A stretch of 64,000 nucleotides of DNA from a bacterium (lineage in GTDB: Bacteria; Electryoneota; Electryoneia; Electryoneales; Electryoneaceae). Positions 1,036 to 5,448 of this stretch are shown in pieces. A program made the position numbers and the translations under genes. The notes beneath the pieces are model-generated. The model was not told the DNA's origin and did no database searches. It was given only the letters and a program-made list of their open reading frames with translations. The first letter of the stretch is position 1, and each line of letters starts with the position of its first letter. Location of the stretch: the NCBI GenBank assembly GCA_020444265.1, contig JAHLLH010000007.1:62001-126000 (forward strand), given 5' to 3'.

Positions 1036-2022
1036 ATGATGAACCTCCGTACCCTTTCAACCTCGCACCAGGAGCAGCTGGTCCAGCTGATGCGAGATGT
1101 CTCCGCGATGACACTGCGAGTGCAGCAAGACCTTGGTCGCAAGACCGCGTGGCGTAAAAAGGACCACAGCTTTGTCACCATTGCCGATCTGGCAGGGCAG
1201 GTTTTAATTCTGCACACTCTCGCGGAAGTGGTACCGGGCGAACGGATCTATGCTGAAGAGGAAGCGACTTCCCTGAAGAACACTCGTCGTCTTGGACTTG
1301 TACGTGAACTGGTTGAAGACCAATTACAGCGGACCGTTTCCATTGGTGAAGTGGTAGATTTGATCGGGTATCGTGGTGACATGGACTCGGATCGCACCTG
1401 GTTGCTCGATCCGATTGACGGGACGAAAGGATTTATTCGCACAGGGCATTATGCGGTTACCCTTGCCACGCTTGAGCAAGATCAGGTCACGCGCGGATGG
1501 CTCGCGGTTCCGGGTCCGAAAGAGAAAGCGCCGGATGTAAGCGGCTACCTCTTTGCTTCCCAGCGTGATGGGGGTGCAAAAAAAATCGACCTTGCAACTG
1601 GAACCGCATCAGCGCTTCCAGCCCCAGCCGACTTGCCGCTGCATGGTGGTGAGGTGAAGATCGCAGTGACTAAGGCGCACTACATTGACCTTCCACCCAC
1701 CGTTGATCCGAGTCAATGGAAAGCCGAACCCTATGCGATAGACAGCATCGCCAAGTATGCCGCTCTCGCGGTCGGTGCGGCCCACATCTACCCACGTAAG
1801 CCGAGCCGTTGGACCGGGCCCTTCTACTGTTGGGATCATGCAGCAGGGGTGCTACTGCTCAGGGAGACCGGAGGAGTAGCAACAGACCTGGCAGGTAAAC
1901 CATTGGATTGGAGCGCAGGTGTTCGTCTGACGAACAATCGTGGCATCTTCGCCGCGTCCCATCCCGATCTCCACGAACAACTCCAACCTCTTTTCGCGGA
2001 TCATGTACGCGACATCCTGTGA
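1036..2022 (+). CDS. 3'(2'),5'-bisphosphate nucleotidase (HAL2/SAL1-like)
   Basis: Member of the lithium-sensitive inositol-monophosphatase fold, closest in pattern to PAP phosphatases that hydrolyse 3'-phosphoadenosine 5'-phosphate from sulfate assimilation to AMP. Visible metal-site motifs are IYAEEEA, then LLDPIDGTKGF with both aspartates and the catalytic threonine, and near the C-terminus CWDHAAGVLLLRETGG. The open frame extends upstream to 916, but homology begins near the double ATG at 1036/1039, and residues upstream look like untranslated sequence; no strong ribosome site decides between the two ATGs. 328 residues suits the family. The gene stands alone. Substrate (PAP rather than another bisphosphate) is inferred from the family. 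Confidence 0.85.
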   Translation: MMNLRTLSTSHQEQLVQLMRDVSAMTLRVQQDLGRKTAWRKKDHSFVTIADLAGQVLILHTLAEVVPGERIYAEEEATSLKNTRRLGLVRELVEDQLQRTVSIGEVVDLIGYRGDMDSDRTWLLDPIDGTKGFIRTGHYAVTLATLEQDQVTRGWLAVPGPKEKAPDVSGYLFASQRDGGAKKIDLATGTASALPAPADLPLHGGEVKIAVTKAHYIDLPPTVDPSQWKAEPYAIDSIAKYAALAVGAAHIYPRKPSRWTGPFYCWDHAAGVLLLRETGGVATDLAGKPLDWSAGVRLTNNRGIFAASHPDLHEQLQPLFADHVRDIL

Positions 2023-2035
2023 CACCTGGCTGGCA

Positions 2036-2140
2036 CAAATAAATTGAGGGCTGAACGTTTCCGCTCAGCCCTCAATGTGACGTATTGCCGTCACAGGAAA
2101 TTCGGTGCTAGCTCAGTCGCGCATCGGACGTCATTGCTGT
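2036..2140 (-). ncRNA. Putative sigma-54-dependent small RNA, about 105 nt
   Basis: No gene is annotated here. On the minus strand a near-consensus sigma-54 promoter at 2167-2151 predicts a start at 2140 (an A). The transcript would contain a stem TGTGACG/CGTCACA with a 6-nt loop (2095-2076) and then the 11-bp terminator stem with a U-rich tail, ending near 2036. The only short frame, an 8-codon ATG...TAG at 2135, has no ribosome site. Palindromic sites suitable for an enhancer-binding protein lie 116-170 nt upstream of the start, and the gene immediately upstream encodes such a protein. Known analogues are GlmY/GlmZ, Qrr and CrcZ, which are sigma-54-driven RNAs. Existence and length are predictions; targets are unknown. 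Confidence 0.6.
2044..2075 (-). terminator. Intrinsic terminator of the putative small RNA
   Basis: Perfect 11-bp stem, TTGAGGGCTGA at 2044-2054 pairing with TCAGCCCTCAA at 2065-2075, with a 10-nt loop. On the minus strand the stem is followed at once by TTTATTTG, so it terminates leftward transcription. It could also serve the rightward phosphatase gene as a bidirectional hairpin, although the plus-strand side has no T tract. Confidence 0.75.
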
Positions 2141-2150
2141 CCTATACTAA

Positions 2151-2167
2151 AGCAAGCGACGGGCCAG
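2151..2167 (-). promoter_or_regulatory. rpoN-dependent promoter: Sigma-54 (-24/-12) promoter of the small RNA
   Basis: Minus-strand sequence CTGGCCCGTCGCTTGCT. Against the consensus YTGGCACG-N4-TTGCW it differs at one position (C for A in the -24 box). The invariant GG and GC are exactly 10 nt apart. It points left into the hairpin-terminated segment and has no protein-coding gene downstream before the convergent phosphatase gene. Confidence 0.7.
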
Positions 2168-2255
2168 TTTCATCTCTCCGAGTCAGAAACCGCTGAAACG
2201 CATGGCAGGGAACGTTTCTACCCTGGAGACCATAAAGTAGAGGACGATGCAGTAC

Positions 2256-2310
2256 TGTAACAAAAGTGACAGTAGTGTCACACCTTCACGTGTAATGTTA
2301 CAGTGTAACA
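2256..2310. promoter_or_regulatory. Palindromic activator sites upstream of the small RNA
   Basis: A 55-bp run of related half-sites: TGTAACA at 2256-2262; a perfect palindrome GTGACA-GTAG-TGTCAC at 2266-2281; and TGTTACA-G-TGTAACA at 2296-2310, also perfect. They sit at about -116 to -170 from the predicted start at 2140, the usual place for enhancer sites of NtrC-family activators. The GTGACA-N4-TGTCAC form recurs at 5424-5439 ahead of the neighbouring activator gene, which suggests one protein binds both. The sites end only 5 bp after the activator's stop codon. Confidence 0.6.
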
Positions 2311-5422: not shown

Positions 5423-5448
5423 TGTGACACTTCTGTCACGATGTGACA
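5423..5448. promoter_or_regulatory. Operator palindromes upstream of the sigma-54 activator gene
   Basis: TGTGACA-CTTC-TGTCAC at 5423-5439 is followed by another TGTGACA at 5442-5448. A degenerate third site, TGTGACA then TGTCC on the minus strand, overlaps the start codon around 5345-5361. The core palindrome GTGACA-N4-TGTCAC is the same as at 2266-2281. No -24/-12 promoter with correct spacing was found ahead of the gene (a candidate has an 11-nt gap), so the sites may repress or otherwise autoregulate a sigma-70 promoter. Confidence 0.55.

Follow-up and report, generated by a model that had tools for sequence, protein, structure and literature searches.

A putative sigma-54-dependent small RNA next to the gene for a predicted membrane-anchored activator in an uncultured bacterium

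The question raised by this locus is what a −24/−12 promoter drives when it lies between two convergent genes, just past the gene of a probable sigma-54 activator, and faces no protein gene. We addressed it in a 64-kb window, that is, the whole stretch of DNA analysed, from the 4.33-Mb genome (94% complete) of an uncultured bacterium. A first-pass annotation had proposed a non-coding transcription unit between the convergent genes, and the anatomy of this putative unit held up in the sequence, with coordinates good to 1–2 bases (Table 1). On the minus strand, the activator stop (2315) is followed by a cluster of half-sites (2310–2256), the promoter, the predicted start (~2140), ~65 nt devoid of an ORF, and the terminator.

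Table 1. Features of the locus, in window coordinates.
Feature	Positions	Strand	Basis or remark
Convergent neighbour, inositol monophosphatase family (CysQ-like)	1036–2022	+	Pfam matches
Predicted small RNA, ~98–105 nt	2043–2141	−	Promoter-to-terminator span
Intrinsic terminator, ~15-pair stem, GAAA loop, imperfect tail TTTATTTG	2043–2076	−	Fold, terminator scan
Small hairpin TGTGACG-GCAATA-CGTCACA	2076–2095	−	Arms also resemble the activator half-site
−24/−12 (sigma-54) promoter TGGCCCGTCGCTTGCT	2151–2166	−	Matrix match; predicted start ~2140
TGTNACA half-site cluster, probable activator sites	2256–2310		About −116 to −170 from predicted start
GTGACACTACTGTCAC	2266–2281		Inside the 2256–2310 cluster
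TGTTACACTGTAACA	2296–2310		Inside the 2256–2310 cluster
Membrane-anchored sigma-54 activator (predicted), 1011 aa	2315–5350	−	ORF, Pfam, TM segments, motifs
Second site cluster, including TGTCACATCGTGACA (5434–5448)	5423–5448		Upstream of the activator gene

Promoter, predicted transcript and terminator

Sigma-54 is encoded in the genome (PF04552, E 3e-51), along with ~27 strong matches to AAA+ activators. To score promoters we used a matrix composed from general knowledge of the sigma-54 consensus, by which TGGCCCGTCGCTTGCT reached 17.0 (maximum 19.2) and was the best match in the window, the runner-up scoring 14.2. As first proposed, it departs at a single base from TGGCACG-N4-TTGCW, and its GG and GC elements are spaced as in sigma-54 promoters. 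Dinucleotide simulation put the chance of so good a match at ~1.4e-4 per 275 bp of one strand, a rough figure derived from a single hit in 2 Mb, and the score fell within the top 0.4% of real 300-base stretches from the compared loci, a background that includes other true promoters. Perfect TGGCMCGNNNNTTGCW matches occur four times in the 4.33-Mb genome, where base composition predicts ~3 by our own arithmetic; consensus alone therefore proves nothing, and it is position that carries weight. Scanning 222 kb of strand sequence gave eight strong sigma-54-like sites, and the present promoter alone among them had a strong terminator 60–260 nt downstream. No IHF-like site was found between the activator sites and the promoter.

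Between the predicted start and the terminator there is no ORF of at least 20 aa, so that, by sequence alone, the unit has what is expected of a small RNA gene: its own promoter, its own intrinsic terminator and no protein gene. The terminator was originally drawn as an 11-bp stem at 2075–2044; it is indeed present, albeit larger, its ~15 pairs spanning 2076–2043. The strong folding z-score of the whole unit (−5.5) is due to this element, as the segment from 2141 to 2078 folds no better than its shuffles (z −0.01), and the description of the unit as hairpin-rich consequently found no support outside the terminator.

The same structure is the first long-stem terminator 3′ of the activator stop on that strand, as it would be if it simply ended the activator mRNA, the promoter-like site being fortuitous or minor and any RNA a processed 3′ UTR. 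That perfect promoter matches are genome-wide no commoner than composition predicts would agree with this explanation, which we nevertheless deem rather improbable given the low simulated chance of such a match in 275 bp and the coincidence of the promoter with the window's densest cluster of activator-like sites. Alternatively, an ATG at 2134, 6–8 bases past the predicted start, could open a very short leaderless peptide (MTSDARLS), or the transcript could act mainly in cis on that of the convergent phosphatase gene, as an antisense to its 3′ end, no plus-strand terminator having been found between the two genes. However, the peptide would comprise eight codons with no ribosome site within the transcript, and the RNA would stop short of the phosphatase coding region, which makes both variants very improbable.

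The activator and its palindromic sites

The first-pass annotation had described the upstream neighbour as a membrane-bound sigma-54 activator, an assignment that the predicted protein sequence bears out. Hydropathy and Pfam matches place two transmembrane segments (residues 21–42 and 488–512) around a predicted extracytoplasmic region of ~445 residues (~43–487), followed in the cytoplasm by a PAS domain (567–676), an AAA+ domain with GSFTGA (696–862), a lid (868–951) and a Fis-type HTH (966–1002). Both the Walker A motif (GESGTGKE) and the GSFTGA loop are intact. The protein thus unites the hallmarks of sigma-54 enhancer-binding proteins (AAA+, Walker A, GAFTGA-type loop and Fis-type HTH) with the layout of a membrane one-component activator, namely two transmembrane segments around a sensor and a cytoplasmic PAS-AAA-HTH part, in a topology that is itself predicted. 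A two-sequence structure model of the sensor was too poor for use (pLDDT 39). No close relatives of the sensor were found in the named genome collection, and in the phylum recognisable relatives came from only four other genomes, at 23–28% identity. In one related genome (G001), a similar sensor is carried by a histidine kinase, so named from its sequence, which adjoins a response-regulator-type AAA+ activator (L086 7170–9947 and 5731–7287, minus strand). This fusion supports the domain being an outside sensor able to feed a sigma-54 switch. The same locus points to a swap between two-component and one-component sigma-54 routes.

Half-site matches in the window are densest at 2256–2310 (nine in 61 bp), precisely where activator sites had been proposed, and at 5423 (five), and these two clusters bracket the activator gene, one on either side. 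Across the 4.33 Mb, the full palindrome TGTNAC-N3-GTNACA has three occurrences, two flanking the activator gene and one where a coding region ends; a reversed control pattern has none. Since composition alone predicts ~3 genome-wide copies (own arithmetic), it is the two positions, rather than the count, that matter. The activator sites make a stronger case than the promoter for being more than chance. Those at 5423–5448 probably serve autoregulation of the activator gene, as judged from their location; no good sigma-54 promoter was found beside this cluster.

Known systems and searches for RNA relatives, Hfq and targets

Sigma-54 activators that switch on small RNAs include CbrB, which controls CrcZ, and LuxO, which controls the Qrr RNAs. 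Both are cytosolic response regulators, and their RNAs are linked to Hfq, CrcZ acting on Hfq/Crc and the Qrr RNAs requiring Hfq. The locus described here differs in its membrane-anchored activator and in that no Hfq (PF17209) was detected in the genome, which is 94% complete. Regulators of the ToxR/CadC type resemble the activator in combining an outside sensor and a DNA-binding part in one membrane protein, but they are not AAA+ sigma-54 activators.

In Escherichia coli, GlmY is transcribed beside qseEGF from a sigma-54 promoter driven by QseF (GlrR) through several TGT...ACA sites (PMC6075780). The likeness comprises a sigma-54 small RNA promoter, upstream TGT...ACA sites and an RNA gene adjoining activator genes (PMC6075780), whereas QseF, a soluble response regulator, receives its phosphate from QseE, and the consensus reported for its sites is TGTN12ACA, as compared to TGT-N9-ACA here. 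In Desulfovibrio vulgaris, each of the activator genes DVU0653 and DVU0679 has a non-coding RNA directly downstream, as here, and a reconstruction assigned another to DVU2359, like ours a single-component activator (PMC4641369). This is a different organism, two of these three proteins are response regulators, and membrane anchoring is not mentioned in the passages concerned (PMC4641369). DVU2359 also contradicts the first-pass statement that known sigma-54 activators of RNAs are cytosolic response regulators (PMC4641369). In Clostridiales, the sensor domains of sigma-54 activators mostly lack transmembrane regions (PMC6615313). The GlmY precedent and the Desulfovibrio ones suggest that this locus would work like these pairs; sigma-54 RNAs adjacent to their activators are already known, and the variant feature is the membrane-anchored one-component activator.

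A DNA search of the 38 other genomes of the phylum yielded no sequence relatives of the RNA unit, only chance-level matches. Similarly, Rfam scans at curated and loose thresholds returned no family match, GlmY, Qrr and CrcZ included, and as judged from its sequence the unit does not belong to these three families. A narK match was rejected as sub-threshold (E 0.38). The target search, which covered near-matches to the complement of one possible seed, the unpaired AGGAAATTCGGT, retrieved 24 sites; one was that of the unit, and none of them lay convincingly at a start codon. Of the original small-RNA proposal, what stands is a sigma-54 unit beside its probable activator; the part that it is a working small RNA gained no support from relatives, Rfam, Hfq or a convincing target.

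Comparable loci and the proposed switch

We compared the locus with others encoding related activators. In two genomes, a sigma-54 promoter comes after a homologous activator gene, 111 bases past the stop in G006 and 208 bases past it in G026; both promoters score within the top 0.5% of the 300-base stretches used as background. In G006 the promoter faces the gene of an exported protein whose C-terminal tail is type-IX-like, and in G026 that of a TonB-like protein, both names being read from sequence. G006 further carries palindromes of its own, TGTCCAGATGGACA, in the matching place. In the genome of the window, three soluble activators (L107, L110 and L116) likewise have sigma-54-like promoters just downstream, facing ORFs, and no sigma-54 promoter was found downstream of the homologous activators in G033 and G031 or of the C2 paralogue. 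An activator followed by a promoter is thus a common arrangement, of which the locus described here is the case without a protein-gene target. In G005 (L085 10861–11190), a sigma-54-like promoter lies 21 bp past the activator, followed by ~275 nt without a convincing ORF and by a terminator ~300 nt on; it may be a second non-coding case but is a weak parallel only, with no matching palindromic sites, a GSFTNA loop and a weaker promoter (14.1).

This comparison bears on the main rival explanation, namely a relic in which the protein gene once driven by the activator was deleted, leaving promoter, sites and terminator behind. The relatives provide a model for the product of the lost gene, either TonB-like or secreted and bearing a type-IX-like sorting tail; the three soluble activators of the same genome point the same way, and no excess structure precedes the terminator. 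However, the near-perfect promoter and sites fit continued selection or very recent loss, the terminator lies at an RNA-like distance and no gene remnant was recognised, so that we consider a relic unlikely, albeit a serious contender.

As the promoter here faces a short unit alone, as opposed to protein genes elsewhere, a small RNA is the best reading, and from the sequence features we put the probability of a dedicated one-component signal-to-RNA switch at roughly 0.6. We infer a circuit in which the membrane activator would sense a signal through its extracytoplasmic domain and its cytoplasmic AAA+ part, bound to the TGTNAC-N3-GTNACA sites between −116 and −170, would remodel sigma-54 polymerase at 2166–2151. 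The resulting RNA of ~100 nt, ending at the 2076–2043 terminator, would most likely base-pair with mRNAs, and its open stretch ACCGAAUUUCCU might cover ribosome sites; the activator would also bind ahead of its own gene. Since no Hfq was detected, such an RNA would pair unaided or via another chaperone. The rank of the promoter and its adjacency to the activator, the palindromes, the terminator distance, the presence of sigma-54, the intact motifs, the ORF-free unit, the parallel loci and the precedents in the literature all argue for this switch. Against it stand the lack of relatives of the unit and of close relatives of the sensor, the shuffle-like 5′ 64 nt, the failure to detect Hfq, the lack of a start-site target among near-matches to one possible seed, and the protein targets in relatives with a clear promoter. 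A more specific version, in which a kinase-less envelope circuit of one protein and one Hfq-free small RNA arose as the RNA replaced an exported-protein target, is tentative and in our estimate falls short of even odds. If true, an outside signal would be converted into a regulatory RNA in a single protein step in an uncultured lineage without detected Hfq, which would suggest an origin of small RNAs whereby an activator retains its promoter while an RNA displaces the protein target.

Several additional observations concern the activator family and sigma-54 promoters at large. A paralogue in the same genome (L033 6577–10584, minus strand) has a much longer sensor and GAFTSA replacing GAFTGA, and the exported-protein gene that comes after it has no clear sigma-54 promoter. 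Activators of the same architecture, or the kinase, repeatedly adjoin exported proteins with type-IX-like sorting tails (L033, L035, L036, L037, L085 and L086), an adjacency that suggests control of secreted cargo. Of the sigma-54 promoters seen in this genome, TGGCACGCCCCTTGCA (C9; L094 4249–4234, minus strand) scores highest; it lies ~100 bases upstream of dnaK, which hints that sigma-54 may control a heat-shock chaperone. Finally, a near-perfect sigma-54 promoter (C10; L095 4630–4615, minus strand) precedes the gene of yet another exported protein whose C-terminal sorting tail is type-IX-like.
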